Assembly (NCBI GenBank): GCA_903930345.1
Contig: CAIYYI010000478.1
Span: forward strand, 1 to 33,815
Direction of reading: 5' to 3'
Length of the DNA stretch: 33,815 nt
Source of the DNA: an uncultured Verrucomicrobiota bacterium
GTDB taxonomy: Bacteria; Verrucomicrobiota; Verrucomicrobiia; Limisphaerales; CAIYYI01
Shown here: one piece after another, positions 25,769 through 32,557 of the stretch
How the letters are laid out: each line of letters opens with the position of its first letter
Position numbering within the stretch: position 1 is the stretch's first letter
Translations under genes and position numbers: made by a program
The notes under the pieces: model-generated
Seen by the model: the letters and a program-made list of their open reading frames with translations, nothing else
The model's database searches: none
Told to the model about the DNA's origin: nothing

Positions 25769-27125
<1,357 letters not shown>

Positions 27126-27151
27126 GCTGTCGCTGCTGATTGACCATTCCC

Positions 27152-27187
27152 AACCCGGGGACGTTTTACGACGTTCCCGGGTTTTTT
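27152..27187 (+). terminator. Strong intrinsic terminator after enolase
   Basis: AACCCGGGGACGT (27152-27164) pairs with ACGTTCCCGGGTT (27171-27183) with a single G-T wobble around a 6-nt loop, followed by six T (27182-27187). It begins 26 bp after the stop. Confidence 0.92.
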
Positions 27188-27427
27188 GTTGTCCTCCAAT
27201 CCGATCTCCCCTTGATCGCGGGAACTCGCTTTTCACATGGTCCGCATAATGACACTGACCCCAAGGCAACCCCACAGAACGACAAATCCCCCGACGACGC
27301 CGTAGGACTGCCAACTGCGTGGGTTTGGTCGGGCACACAATTCGTCGTCAAAACCATGAGTGATGCTGACGCTCCCGGCTCCCGCTCTGCTTTGGGGATG
27401 AAACACCAAAGTGGCAAGCTTTTGGAC
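27188..27427. other. Intergenic region between convergent eno and the small secreted protein gene
   Basis: About 240 bp with only short, featureless frames on both strands, which run into the terminator or the antisense of the neighbouring gene. No clear minus-strand terminator for the secreted-protein cassette was found. Confidence 0.5.
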
Positions 27428-27859
27428 TCAAGGTTTGATGAGCCGATAGCAGCGAACCGGAAAAGTGACAGGAACAGTGACGGGATTGGTTCCGCCACTG
27501 AGCGAAAACGTCCAATTGGAAACCATCGGACTGGCATTTTCCTGCAGGACAAACCCGGTCGTTTCCGGCCACCATGAAAGAATCGCCCGGCCCGGCAAGG
27601 GCGCAGGTCGAATGGAGAGCAGCGGTGCGCCCGGCATTTGCACCACAGTCGGCAGAATCCAAAGACCGCCCTGGACAGAGCACTGGCTGTTGGTCAGCAA
27701 AACGCCCGCCTCTGGCTGACCGATGACCCCAGTGAGCCGATACGTGCCACCAGAGCTTTCCCGGTTGACCGAACTGGTCTTGAACCGGTCAATGACAAAC
27801 TGTTGGGCAAAACAGCCGACTGCTGCCAGCAATCCAAACAGCGAGAGATGTTTTTTCAT
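27428..27859 (-). CDS. Small secreted protein of unknown function
   Basis: This is a 143-aa protein with a clear Sec signal peptide (MKKHLSLFGLLAAVGCFAQQ). The mature part starts FVIDRF and contains GGTYRLTGVIGQPEAG, followed by QCSVQGGLWILP and a C-terminal beta-rich module (LSIRPAP..AILSWWPETTGFVLQENASP.. ending RCYRLIKP). This layout is familiar from exported verrucomicrobial proteins, but no function is known to me. The frame is open further upstream, but the ATG at 27859 places the signal peptide correctly, 29 bp after the metzincin stop. It is the last gene of the three-gene exported cassette. Confidence 0.8.
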   Translation of the reverse strand: MKKHLSLFGLLAAVGCFAQQFVIDRFKTSSVNRESSGGTYRLTGVIGQPEAGVLLTNSQCSVQGGLWILPTVVQMPGAPLLSIRPAPLPGRAILSWWPETTGFVLQENASPMVSNWTFSLSGGTNPVTVPVTFPVRCYRLIKP

Positions 27860-27888: not shown

Positions 27889-29193
27889 TTAAGGTTTGCC
27901 AATAATCACGCGCCCCCCCTCGGCCACCAAAGTGAGGCGTTTGCGAATGGTCATCCGCTCTGGGTAGGATCCAGCGGCGATCTGCACGCGGTCTCCGTCC
28001 TGGGCGGCGCAATCAATGGCCTTTTGAACAGTTTTGTAGGCCCCCCCCAGGCAAATGGAAAACTCAACGGGATCTTCCAGTGGCCAAGGCCAATCGGATG
28101 GAAAACCCGGGGGCCGACCGAGATTCAACGGCGGAGGCCACTCCCAATCATCCGGTACCCCCGGCGGACGGGGCGGGAAAGCAGGGTTGATGGAAAAGGA
28201 ATTGCAGGTTCGCCGGAAGTTATTCTCCGGGCCGGGAGGGTGGAGGTTGAGTTCATCGGTGTACCAGGAGACCGGTCCGGGAAGACTCTCCACCAGACCG
28301 GCCAGTTGCCCTGCCAGCTCACATGGGGAAAGGCCCACCGCTGTGGCATTCACAAACACCGTGGAACCGCTGCACACGTGCCGTTTTTTAAGCGGATCAT
28401 TGGAGGAATCCACCAGAATTTGCCACTGATCATGGGTCAGGCGATCCGCCTTGCCGCCGTTGGATTGGTGGTAGCTCATCACATTATCGAAAACATTGAG
28501 CACCTGTTCCCGTTGAAACATGAAAAGGTTGGAAAAAGAGTTTTGAAAATTGTACTGCGCCACCTCGTTCAACGATTTGTAGCCGAAATCAAAAACAGTA
28601 TCCGCACAGCGGTCATCATTGCGCCAAACATTGCCGCAGTCCGAAGGGTCATTGCAGGGCCCGTGGGTGTGGTTCAGATCCAGGTCGTGGCCAAACTCGT
28701 GCAGGATTATCGGAAAAGAGCCGGCAACCCCGATCAGCACCCCATTGCCGACAATGGGAGTGTAAGGAAATCCCGTGCTCACCCCGGATGCGCTGTTATT
28801 GATGTACACGTTGATGGCATCAATACGCCAATTGTAGCTCGACCAGTTATTGGGCAGCTTGGCCTCGTTTTCGAGGCCTATGAGGTTTGCCCCATCGCGC
28901 GCATCCGCATTGAACCACTTGCTGGCATGGGTGAGTTCAGTCACCCCCACCAATTCGAAGCGGTACCCCCACCCCATGCGGTCCAACAGGGCATTATACC
29001 GCACAATTTCCTGCCGGATATCCGCCTCGGAACCAAGCGTCACGTCATTTGTCGAGGAGGGCCACTGGTTCTCAGGCCCTAGAATCACGTTGATGGATAT
29101 CCGCCAGTAAATGACCGCCTGCGCGGGCCACGCCGCCCCGAACACCATAAGCAGGAACGCCATCCGAACACACCAGAAGCTCACTTTTTTCAT
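27889..29193 (-). CDS. Secreted metzincin-type metalloprotease with Trp/Pro-rich linker and beta-helix stub
   Basis: This 434-aa exported protein has a signal peptide (residues 1-26, ending AWPAQA). The zinc site HEFGHDLDLNH (His165, Glu166, His169, His175) fits HExxHxxGxxH except that Asp replaces the usual Gly. A Met-turn NVMSYH follows at 238-242, so it is metzincin-like, closest in appearance to pappalysin/M43 enzymes. Eight Cys after the signal suggest disulfides. Residues 340-375 form a Pro/Trp-rich linker with a near-repeat of PPGxPxDWxWP. The last 50 residues (AYKTVQKAIDCAAQDGDRVQ onward) look like the first turns of a pectin-lyase-type beta-helix, cut short at the stop. It lies 19 bp after the large surface-protein gene and has a good Shine-Dalgarno. 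Confidence 0.82.
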   Translation of the reverse strand: MKKVSFWCVRMAFLLMVFGAAWPAQAVIYWRISINVILGPENQWPSSTNDVTLGSEADIRQEIVRYNALLDRMGWGYRFELVGVTELTHASKWFNADARDGANLIGLENEAKLPNNWSSYNWRIDAINVYINNSASGVSTGFPYTPIVGNGVLIGVAGSFPIILHEFGHDLDLNHTHGPCNDPSDCGNVWRNDDRCADTVFDFGYKSLNEVAQYNFQNSFSNLFMFQREQVLNVFDNVMSYHQSNGGKADRLTHDQWQILVDSSNDPLKKRHVCSGSTVFVNATAVGLSPCELAGQLAGLVESLPGPVSWYTDELNLHPPGPENNFRRTCNSFSINPAFPPRPPGVPDDWEWPPPLNLGRPPGFPSDWPWPLEDPVEFSICLGGAYKTVQKAIDCAAQDGDRVQIAAGSYPERMTIRKRLTLVAEGGRVIIGKP

Positions 29194-29212: not shown

Positions 29213-32200
29213 CTATTGCAGACTGACCAGCACCAGCACCATGCCGTAGCCTGACGGCAGGCTGGTCATAGCCTTGCCGATGACCGCCCCTGGCCGACGC
29301 ACAGAGTCCGCAGCCTTCATCAGATGCCCCCGGGTGTCCGAGGTGGTCAGCAAATCGCCCGGCTTGATGGGTGCGTGGGTGGCATCCGCCAAGGCATAGA
29401 CACGCCCGGAAAGAGCGATGTTTTGCGTCCCCTCCAGCACGCCTTCCTGACGCAAGGTGAGACCGGGACGGACACCATTTGCCCCGCTGACAATACCAGC
29501 CACGCGTGTATCATAGGCCTGGGTGCTGATTTCCAATTGGCCTGGGTGGTCTTCATCAATCACCACCACCGCCCCCTTGGGAACATCTTCATGGGAAAAT
29601 TGGAACGGCTCAGCCAGATCACTCCCCCCCTTGATTTCAAGAACCGCCACCGAGACATTGCGGGCTTCCAGATCCATATAGGAAGCCGCCGCCGGATTGA
29701 ACAGGGACACTTTGAACACATTGCTGTTCAAGCTACCCATCTGGATATCATTCCCAACGCCGTCGCCACCCAGATAAGCGGCCTCGCCGCCGGTCCCATC
29801 CACCCGGAGATAGCGACCAGCCACCTGCAGTTTCTCCGAGGGAGTCTGGGTTCCCACACCAACATCCCCACCGTCGGCAATACTGATCCGAGACCTTTCG
29901 TGGGTACACAAGTCCAGGCCGTAAACATTGGGGCCGGAACTGCCTCGCCGAGAATATAAGCCAACCCCACTCGTCCCCCCGAATTCAATGCCGCCATCCA
30001 ATCCGGCCGTGTTGGTATTGCTGGCATCCACCATCAAACCCGCTTTCAACTTCAGCAATCCATTGGGTTTGACACTGGCCATCTCCACGTCACCAGCCTC
30101 CAACGAAAGGATGTCATCCCCGTCTGAGGCGCTGATAGCCAAGGCTGCCGCCGGGTTGGTCACATTGATGCCAACCCCGCCGGTGGCCCGAACCAGAAAC
30201 TGATTCATGCCAGTGGAGGCAAAATCAGTGTCGTGATTATCCGCCCAGACAAAGGTTCCGGCATGCCGGGCCTGGGCACGGTGGCCTGCTGCCAGGCTGC
30301 GGGATCCGCTCGCCAGATTACCAACCCCGCCCGGCACTGCCGCCCCCGACCCGGAAGCCGTGTTGTTCAGGCCACCAGAAACGGTCCCGGCGTATCCAGC
30401 GGAGTTACCGCCTCCCCCGCCCACCGTTCCGATGTTTTCAGTCACCTGGTTGGCCAGGACAAAAGCCGCCCCCTGCCCGGTTTTGGTGTCGGTGCTGTAA
30501 CCCTCGTAACCACCACCGGCAATGGTTGCGCCAACACTTCCACTGGCAATGGTGTTGCTCCAGTACCCTCCCAGAAGGTTGACTCCTTCCGTGAAATCAT
30601 CGCTGCCAAACACGGTGCTTTTCCGGTGTCTGAGGGACAGGGCGCGGACATCATTCGCACGGAACTCCATCGGCCTGTTGTCGCTGGTGCCGAGAAAGTG
30701 CGTGCCCGCGAGGGTGCCGGCATTGCCGGTCATCACCCATCCCCCGGAGGCCGCCAACCCGAGGTTGGTCAGGGCGGAGCCATTGCCGGAAAAACTAGTG
30801 GCGCTCACGGTGCCTTGAAAGGCTGCACTTCGGTTCATCAGCGCAACATTGGTGGTCAGACGTGCGTCGGGAAGCGTTCCCTCAAGGCTGCCAGCTCCCA
30901 CCCCCACCAACCCTGCGCCATTACCGACAAAACCAGCCCCTAACGTCATCGCCCCTCCCGGCACCACGGACAAGGTGTTGTCAGCGGCATTCGCACTGAT
31001 AAGGTCCAGACCGCCATCCCGGTTAAGGTCGGCAACAATCACAGCCCAAGGCGAACCGCCAATGCTGTTCGTGCTGGCGAATCCAAACCCTCCCCGCCCA
31101 TTATTGGTCAGCACCGTCAGGGTTCCTGTCGCGTTATTGACCGCCACCAAGTCCTGCCAGCCATCCCGGTTCAAATCGGCTCCGGTCACGGCGATCGGCA
31201 CGTTTCCCACCACCAGCGTCGCTGCCGTCACAAAAGCCCCTCCGGCACCATTCGTCAGCACCGTCAGGGTGCCAGCCACCGCGTCCGCACTCACCAAATC
31301 CTGGCGGCCATCCCGGTTGACGTCCACCGCTGCGACTGCATACGGACGGTTCCCCACTGCCGGGGAGGCTGCCAAGCGAAAACCTCCGGCTCCATCGTTG
31401 GTGAGCACAGACAGGGTATTGGCCTGAAAATTGGCGCTCACCAAGTCCGCCCAACCATCCCCGTTCACTTCGGCAACCTGAACAGCATACGGTTGCCCCC
31501 CCACGCCGGGGGAAACCATCACCCCAAAACCACCGGCGCGATTGTTGGTCAGTACGGTCAAGCTGTTTGCCCCGCTGTTGGCACTCACCAAGTCCTGCCA
31601 ACCGTCCCCGTTGACATCGCCAACCGCCAATGATCGAGGGCCAACCCCGACTGGAATGATCACGGCAGGACCAAATCCGGCCCCGCTGTTGGTAAGCACG
31701 GTCACAGTGCCATCGACCGAATTGGCAGTGGCCAGATCCTGCCGTCCATCATTGTTTAAATCCCCGACCACCACGGCACTGGGATAGGCACCCACACTCC
31801 AGTGGGCCGCCGAAACAAAACCACCCTGCCGATCATTGAGAAGCACTGTAACGGCGTCATCTCCGGTGTTGGCACCGATCAAATCCAGCCAGCCGTCCCC
31901 ATTGATGTCCCCTGCCGCCACCGCGTGAGGGGCAGTTCCTACACCATGAGCCACGGCACGCCCAAAACCAAAGGTGAAGTTTGTCGTCCAGAAAATGGCT
32001 CCACCGGTGTTGGCGGCCCGCAACTCCATATTCGTCAACGCCTCGCCGCTACCGCTAAAAGTGCCCGTCAGGCGCACTCCAGCCCCGCCATTGATCACCA
32101 CGCTTCCCGGCAATTGCCCGGTTGCCAACACCCCCAGAATGTTGGCGGCATCGACCTTGTTGGCGGTGCCGGAAACACCGGCATTCGGCGCAAAAAGGGC

Positions 32201-32557
32201 ATACGGCACAGGCGTGACCGGTTGACGGGGGGAGAGGATAACATAGGTTCCGGTGTCCCCATTGGTCCGCACCCCGATTTCCAACCACCGAGACGGCCCG
32301 GTGAAAACGCCCGGGCCAAAATCCACCAAGGCAGTAAACTGCCCGTTACTGATAGACAGAGCGTTAGTAAACCAGGGGATACCAATCACATCGCCCTCGG
32401 CTGGCCCACTGAAAACGACAAAACGCAAATCGTACGTTCCCCCGGCAGGAACACCCCGGTCGGTCAATCGGCCTTGATAAGTAAAAGCAGTATCTTGCGC
32501 CACAACGCCATTGATCCCCAGAAGGGAACACAAAAGAAGAATCCAGAGGGCTTTCAT
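29213..32557 (-). CDS. Large secreted surface protein: FG-GAP/VCBS repeats plus YadA-head-like region
   Basis: This is a 1114-aa protein with a signal peptide (1-20, ending NGVVA). Residues 22-125 form a domain opening AFTYQGRLTDRG and closing near PRQPVTPVPYA, common in exported verrucomicrobial proteins. Residues 206-540 hold seven FG-GAP/VCBS-type repeats of 48-49 aa, each with a DxNxDGxxDL calcium-site-like core. After that come beads of GSGxALTN/GNGSALTNL type and, around 670-790, Gly/Ser/Ala-rich segments (GTVSGGLNNTASGSGAAVPGG, then AAGHRAQARHAG) resembling trimeric autotransporter head repeats. The C-terminal 150 residues (from SDLAEPFQF to VLVLVSLQ) form a distinct domain without a membrane anchor that I recognise. 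It is probably an adhesin or scaffold; how it stays on the cell is unclear. It is the first gene of the exported cassette. Confidence 0.82.
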   Translation of the reverse strand: MKALWILLLCSLLGINGVVAQDTAFTYQGRLTDRGVPAGGTYDLRFVVFSGPAEGDVIGIPWFTNALSISNGQFTALVDFGPGVFTGPSRWLEIGVRTNGDTGTYVILSPRQPVTPVPYALFAPNAGVSGTANKVDAANILGVLATGQLPGSVVINGGAGVRLTGTFSGSGEALTNMELRAANTGGAIFWTTNFTFGFGRAVAHGVGTAPHAVAAGDINGDGWLDLIGANTGDDAVTVLLNDRQGGFVSAAHWSVGAYPSAVVVGDLNNDGRQDLATANSVDGTVTVLTNSGAGFGPAVIIPVGVGPRSLAVGDVNGDGWQDLVSANSGANSLTVLTNNRAGGFGVMVSPGVGGQPYAVQVAEVNGDGWADLVSANFQANTLSVLTNDGAGGFRLAASPAVGNRPYAVAAVDVNRDGRQDLVSADAVAGTLTVLTNGAGGAFVTAATLVVGNVPIAVTGADLNRDGWQDLVAVNNATGTLTVLTNNGRGGFGFASTNSIGGSPWAVIVADLNRDGGLDLISANAADNTLSVVPGGAMTLGAGFVGNGAGLVGVGAGSLEGTLPDARLTTNVALMNRSAAFQGTVSATSFSGNGSALTNLGLAASGGWVMTGNAGTLAGTHFLGTSDNRPMEFRANDVRALSLRHRKSTVFGSDDFTEGVNLLGGYWSNTIASGSVGATIAGGGYEGYSTDTKTGQGAAFVLANQVTENIGTVGGGGGNSAGYAGTVSGGLNNTASGSGAAVPGGVGNLASGSRSLAAGHRAQARHAGTFVWADNHDTDFASTGMNQFLVRATGGVGINVTNPAAALAISASDGDDILSLEAGDVEMASVKPNGLLKLKAGLMVDASNTNTAGLDGGIEFGGTSGVGLYSRRGSSGPNVYGLDLCTHERSRISIADGGDVGVGTQTPSEKLQVAGRYLRVDGTGGEAAYLGGDGVGNDIQMGSLNSNVFKVSLFNPAAASYMDLEARNVSVAVLEIKGGSDLAEPFQFSHEDVPKGAVVVIDEDHPGQLEISTQAYDTRVAGIVSGANGVRPGLTLRQEGVLEGTQNIALSGRVYALADATHAPIKPGDLLTTSDTRGHLMKAADSVRRPGAVIGKAMTSLPSGYGMVLVLVSLQ
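30937..31942 (-). repeat. Seven tandem FG-GAP coding repeats of about 147 bp
   Basis: The stretch encodes seven consecutive 48-49 aa units with VG-x2-P-xAV, then a D-x-N-x-DG-x2-DL core, then TVLTN. DNA similarity between units is visible, for example the recurring CAGCACCGTCAGGGT around 31113 and 31257. The first repeat (near 31942) and last (near 30940) are the most divergent. Confidence 0.75.

Follow-up and report, generated by a model that had tools for sequence, protein, structure and literature searches.

A short C-terminal module on varied exported enzymes is linked to AEPF-domain genes in Verrucomicrobiota and may couple these enzymes to a common carrier

The window analysed here, a stretch of 33,815 nt (contig CAIYYI010000478.1 of assembly GCA_903930345.1, from an uncultured Verrucomicrobiota bacterium of the Limisphaerales, CAIYYI01), contains two adjacent genes, A and B, which we interpret, with a probability of roughly 55%, as a two-gene exported cassette in which a C-terminal module of the gene B product serves to attach differing enzymes to a shared carrier. 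This module is a conserved, self-contained domain that is mobile between enzyme types and chain positions. Its linkage to genes ending in a second conserved region, here termed the AEPF domain, is strong in both directions with few exceptions, and the arrangement occurs in three phyla. Neither the module nor the AEPF domain was found as a described family in Pfam or NCBIfam, and no paper on the module or the cassette was found in those parts of the open-licence PubMed Central literature that the search returned.

Gene B (27889..29193, minus strand) encodes P0001, an exported M43-like metzincin of 434 amino acids, and the reading frame originally predicted was confirmed to be intact, with an ATG start and no internal stops. 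An apparent Sec signal peptide recognised by eye (residues 1-26; 29116..29193, minus strand) is followed by the metzincin catalytic domain (residues 27-282; 28348..29115, minus strand), a Trp/Pro linker (residues 337-376; 28066..28185, minus strand) and the module, which resembles the start of a beta-helix and extends up to the stop codon (residues 378-434; 27892..28062, minus strand). Behind gene B lies gene C (27428..27859, minus strand), encoding an exported protein of 143 amino acids with an apparent signal peptide and the C-terminal sequence RCYRLIKP. Gene A (29213..32557, minus strand) is located upstream of gene B, with a gap of 19 nt behind its stop codon, and encodes the putative partner, a protein of 1114 amino acids with an apparent signal peptide, FG-GAP repeats and a repetitive middle part that appears fibre-like by eye and for which relatives yielded weak Pfam and PHROG hints only. 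The last 150 residues of gene A, ending MVLVLVSLQ, constitute the AEPF domain (29216..29665, minus strand), which shares 50-70% identity with 12 others aligned and has no match among phages or, at curated cut-offs, in Pfam and NCBIfam. With a crude pattern, the N-terminal 'YQGRL' start of gene A was recovered in 15 of 41 cases, so a common start of these genes is not shown to be general. When 97 genomes of the order were searched with profile A6, built from AEPF domains, 39 AEPF genes were identified in 20 of them (the window's own included), 12 of these genes being rows of the profile.

The last ~57 residues of P0001 match positions 2-44 of the NosD model (E 4e-4) and the opening of DUF1565 (E 0.13), which bears out the earlier observation that the ~50-residue end corresponds only to the opening of a beta-helix; across 52 modules, DUF1565 was matched at E<=1 in 16 (best 2e-5). 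Right-handed beta-helix domains (NosD, DUF1565, pectate-lyase-like) contain several stacked turns and the module resembles their first ~45 residues, whereas the module in the window has only 57 residues and ends at the stop codon. In sequence, it is reminiscent of the cap plus the initial turn of a right-handed beta-helix onto which no further turn is stacked, a solenoid fold being predicted from this likeness. A full-length orthologue (match 12-434 of 434) has its end at the same position, and the ends of 11 of the 12 family members aligned lie no more than a few residues from that of P0001, the other (L005) having an extra tail. Thus, the same ending recurs in homologues as a stable domain, and an apparently truncated protein end can prove to be a genuine domain.

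A module profile with 11 protein ends as rows, chosen before any gene context was seen (A3), gave full-length matches 0-5 residues before the stop codon in the first 76 loci, with one exception in L066, and partial matches mostly at the start of proteins with at least 400 residues following. The 66 module proteins, classified by hand, some of them being incomplete at a locus edge when scanned, comprise 19 M43-like proteins and 47 others, with 11 kinds of recognised domain. The others include nine M4, five S53, three S8, two astacin and one M23 peptidases, three beta-lactamase-fold and 11 kelch proteins, one sortilin-type propeller, one exo/endo-phosphatase, one NBR1-type Ig protein and 10 proteins without an informative match. 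An improved profile (A10, 52 rows) was applied to these 97 genomes and yielded 43 best hits (E<=3.2e-11, a cut placed at the break seen). In contrast to beta-helix domains, 41 of these 43 end 0-4 residues before the stop codon, and the other two (G018 and G084:C751) are located directly after the signal peptide, the sequence behind them showing no resemblance to a beta-helix on visual inspection; neither of the latter proteins had a match in the PDB.

Within the order, 33 of the 43 best hits are encoded directly behind an AEPF gene, five further behind one (1.7-3.7 kb) and three just before one; one hit is at a contig edge and one stands alone (G040:C36, with no AEPF gene within 6.8 kb upstream). 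The module was detected at E<=3.2e-11 in 18 of the 20 genomes with AEPF genes and in none of the 77 others. In the reverse direction, the gene following the AEPF gene ends in the module in 33 of 39 cases with an iterated profile and in 25 of 39 with A3 alone (i-E<=1e-3). The remaining cases comprise a following gene that begins with the module (G018), a weak module match followed by a TPR-like tail (G017:C357, i-E 0.012), two contig ends behind the AEPF gene (G032:C253 and G037:C609) and two AEPF genes without a module protein behind them (G037:C219 and G046:C320). When the 12 rows of A6 are set aside, 22 of 27 following genes end in the module, one begins with it, two lie beyond contig ends and two lack it. 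Among 1106 C-termini tested, the best non-module protein scored E 0.99, and of 19 ORFs in which the module-like stretch lies more than 100 residues before the stop codon, the two located in AEPF clusters are those with the module behind the signal peptide. As the iterated and A10 profiles were built partly from proteins found through the linkage itself, the result obtained with A3 matters as a check: its 55 terminal modules, from a locus set including some loci fetched for their AEPF genes, comprise 41 directly behind an AEPF gene, four in tandem and 10 in neither position (three at contig edges and one a 67-residue fragment). In 49 of 51 pairs, the open frame of gene B starts in the interval from 339 nt upstream to 52 nt downstream of the gene A end.

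Twenty-five hits below the cut were followed, 21 of which run on for at least 207 residues; most hits below the cut are true beta-helix openings. In three others, the stop codon follows within 3 residues (G040:C51, G068:C281 and G034:C272), the first of them being a second module protein behind an AEPF gene, and a terminal module behind an AEPF gene was also present below the cut in G037:C55 (E 6.8e-6). The third, a 68-aa ORF (G034:C272:9674-9877; L276) in which a piece of an AEPF end is followed by a piece of the module, is apparently a decayed cassette and counts in favour of the link. Apart from this remnant, no protein combining AEPF domain and module was found among the ORFs examined. G068:C281 is a real exception that counts against the link: no AEPF match accompanies the terminal module in the 15.2 kb covered, a neighbouring protein carries the module 90 residues before its end, and no AEPF gene was found in this genome among the 40 of 54 candidates scored. 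Upstream of these two module proteins, a protein of 404 amino acids with a coiled-coil end is encoded (L275:6574-7785, corresponding to G068:C281:13373-14584), which looks fibre-type by eye and is possibly a different kind of carrier. Several module genes in tandem, or AEPF and module genes in alternation, lie on a single strand in L118 (G008:C27), L059 and L116 (G026:C482) and L061 (G059:C91), as if cassettes had multiplied. Furthermore, in L186 (G017:C357) and L194 (G180:C420) an M43-like gene follows the AEPF gene and the module is degraded or absent, with a TPR-like charged tail.

Beyond the order, AEPF genes were found in five of 288 genomes of a phylum-wide draw (the window's own included) and in four of 40 genomes of the phylum to which a Calditrichia MAG belongs. 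A close AEPF gene followed by a module protein was identified in the Calditrichota genomes G293 (two cases, both used as rows of the profile), G325 (two cases, 1e-9 and 4e-9) and G323 (1e-5) and in the Verrucomicrobiota genome G541 (2e-10); in G569, an M43-like gene has an end that is not recognisable (E 0.31). No module protein follows the distant AEPF-like genes in Calditrichota; behind three of these in G293 and one in G326, the encoded proteins have ends that by eye resemble T9SS sorting domains (L222, L224 and L225). Among plasmids, 11 records had an AEPF match and six were examined. On a Runella rosea plasmid, the protein encoded behind the AEPF gene contains the module at residues 416-467 (A3, E 8.8e-6), with a T9SS sorting domain after it. 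The scanned proteins after the AEPF gene on Hymenobacter, Acaryochloris, Streptomyces sp. NBC_01351 and Paraburkholderia plasmids lack the module, and a Streptomyces canus plasmid record also has an AEPF match. On the Paraburkholderia plasmid (L231:4054-6177), the AEPF gene is followed by a small ORF and a 240-aa protein with HEFGHMLGLPDEY, a putative AEPF-linked metalloprotease without the module.

As the module is present on many unrelated exported enzymes and nearly always beside an AEPF gene, it most likely docks the enzyme onto the A protein or onto a structure built by it, and coupling to this partner is the simplest function that accounts for a module that is both mobile and AEPF-linked. 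The A protein, with its conserved AEPF domain at the C-terminus, would then be a fibre-like carrier that is presumably located at the cell surface, and the B protein a metzincin protease joined by its Trp/Pro linker to a docking module of ~55 residues. The protease might process the fibre, serve in feeding or attack neighbours. The likeness of the module to the start of a beta-helix suggests its open first turn as the docking face, which may be completed by a solenoid of the partner. More tentatively, and rather less probably than the cassette reading itself, the genes could represent an undescribed display system with one fibre-like carrier per cassette, a solitary open-edged turn as plug and interchangeable enzymes, the carrier supplying the missing turns in trans such that the enzyme would become the end of the carrier's own solenoid. 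The enzymes bearing the plug include at least six peptidase families, propellers and serine hydrolases. In cellulosomes, dockerin-cohesin pairs allow a small module to plug varied enzymes into a common carrier. The module described here would by analogy let varied enzymes plug into a carrier, although the carrier, the module and the enzyme types (mostly peptidases) differ and no dockerin match was found in P0001 with Pfam at E<=1. If the cassette reading is correct, one small tag mounts many enzymes, mainly proteases, on a common carrier in a large, little-studied bacterial group, as a protein-degrading counterpart of the cellulosome idea. The two undescribed domains would then form a new pair of candidate coupling domains with a joint, testable function, and 'hypothetical' proteins could be annotated as cassette members.

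The alternative that survives best, though we consider it doubtful, is that the A and B proteins are operon partners without contact, and that the module binds another ligand, e.g. a surface polysaccharide or the product of gene C. Beta-helices often bind glycans, which counts for this possibility, as does the module protein of G068 without an AEPF gene. Relatives of gene C (phmmer E<=1e-3) are encoded within 3 kb behind 27 of the 66 module proteins, which points in the same direction, but the module accompanies the AEPF gene more regularly than it does gene C, in other phyla as well. No signal of pairing between the two proteins within genomes was seen, which also counts for this possibility: AEPF and module distances correlate across 51 pairs (r 0.249, reached in none of 5000 free shuffles), but shuffles within genomes reach this value in 2874 of 20,000 cases, i.e. 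there is no pairing beyond genome identity.

Less probably, the A protein exports or chaperones the B protein as in two-partner secretion, with the module serving as the recognition tag. The order of A then B with the close spacing of their frames would suit such a system, as would a single tag on varied cargo. However, no translocator domain was recognised in the A protein, which carries an apparent signal peptide (by eye), the B protein has an apparent signal peptide of its own, and the cargo in Runella additionally bears a T9SS tail.

Slightly more unlikely still is a role of the module as a signal for sorting or export at the C-terminus, comparable to the T9SS tail or PEP-CTERM. Like the T9SS sorting domain, the module is a short C-terminal domain common to varied, unrelated exported enzymes, and it is terminal in all but two of the best hits. 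In contrast to a sorting signal, most copies sit in AEPF clusters and are not spread over the secretome, and the module, which is linked to one type of partner gene, can also be internal or N-terminal. In Runella it precedes a separate T9SS sorting domain, and in G018 and G084:C751 it directly follows the signal peptide, arrangements that do not fit a pure sorting signal. Furthermore, scans of P0001 and of two isolated module sequences against NCBIfam revealed no sorting domain, P0001 had no PEP-CTERM match in NCBIfam at E<=1, and the Por_Secre_tail profile matched neither P0001 nor the window's module alone.

The reading put forward in the original prediction, a decayed or truncated remnant of a longer beta-helix protein, is very improbable and was rejected, since despite its resemblance to the opening of beta-helix families the same end is found in many unrelated proteins, and none of the examined homologues of P0001 continues into a beta-helix.

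The catalytic domain of P0001 falls below Pfam cut-offs (Reprolysin_5, E 0.013; Peptidase_M43, E 0.36), scoring 11.2 bits against PF05572 with its curated cut-off of 23, whereas 11 of the 12 aligned family members match Peptidase_M43 at E<=1 (best 2e-7). Searched alone against the PDB with phmmer, P0001 retrieved one irrelevant match and no M43 enzyme. A profile of 18 catalytic domains of the family (A9), in contrast, matched pappalysin-1 (6e-9), ulilysin (3.8e-6) and mirolysin (7e-4), and the gene B product is therefore assigned to the M43-like metzincins. The earlier suggestion of a new protease subfamily is fair; the protease itself is a new member of a known enzyme type. An AlphaFold model of P0001 was poor (mean pLDDT 48), as was one of the AEPF domain (41), the two being based on 4 and 5 sequences, respectively. 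Foldseek on the P0001 model returned weak matches to ADAM-8 (E 0.037) and promirolysin (0.32) and none at E<=0.001.

The zinc motif HEFGHDLDLNH (residues 165-175; 28669..28701, minus strand) has Asp172 at the metzincin Gly position (28678-28680, minus strand), as predicted, and, apart from this Asp at the variable position, fits HExxHxx(G/N)xxH/D; the Met-turn NVMSYH is present (residues 237-242; 28468..28485, minus strand). P0001 shares the extended zinc motif, the Met-turn NxMSY and a DT after the zinc site with the M43 pappalysins (mirolysin, ulilysin and pappalysin-1). The metzincin motif is given with G/N in a recent paper (PMC11674741), and mirolysin, a solved M43 enzyme, has Asp231 at the same position (PMC6949598). 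Within the family this position is occupied by G in 11, N in seven, S in three, D in two and R in one of the 24 readable motifs among 27 ORFs. Asp172, which had been regarded as an oddity, is consequently ruled out as a novelty. The same source (PMC6949598) describes a cysteine-switch pro-segment as a feature of unicellular pappalysins such as mirolysin. In contrast, P0001 has no Cys from the signal peptide to residue 180 (residues 27-179), and thus no such pro-segment, and it differs from known pappalysins by its distinct Trp/Pro linker and C-terminal module. P0001 retains all three His and the Glu of the zinc motif and is predicted to be proteolytically active. The paralogue in L016 (HACGHFFNLRH) lacks the catalytic Glu and that in L020 (REIGHYFDLCD) has lost two zinc ligands, and the family therefore probably also includes dead enzymes.

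A search with the whole of P0001 yielded relatives in 14 of the 58 genomes searched from its order (own included, some matches covering the C-terminal stretch only), and one with the catalytic domain alone yielded relatives in 16 of 293 genomes (own included). A single-protein scan of genome contigs with P0001 retrieved no relative, and P0001 had no match among PHROGs or plasmids. The repeat PPGxPxDWxWP occurs twice in the linker of P0001 (PPGVPDDWEWP and PPGFPSDWPWP), as originally noted, and a pair of units is likewise present in each of the two close orthologues, which derive from a MAG labelled Pedosphaera parvula (L104) and an uncultured Verrucomicrobia MAG (L103), the first unit in one of them being PPLVPADWPWP. 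The linker is the best-conserved part of these three proteins, with pairwise identities of 26-29 of 40 residues as opposed to 113-152 of 245-247 in the catalytic domain. In addition to their position behind module proteins, relatives of gene C also precede some AEPF genes. Elsewhere in the window, an open frame of 416 amino acids antisense to enolase (26088-27338, minus strand) is most likely a shadow ORF.
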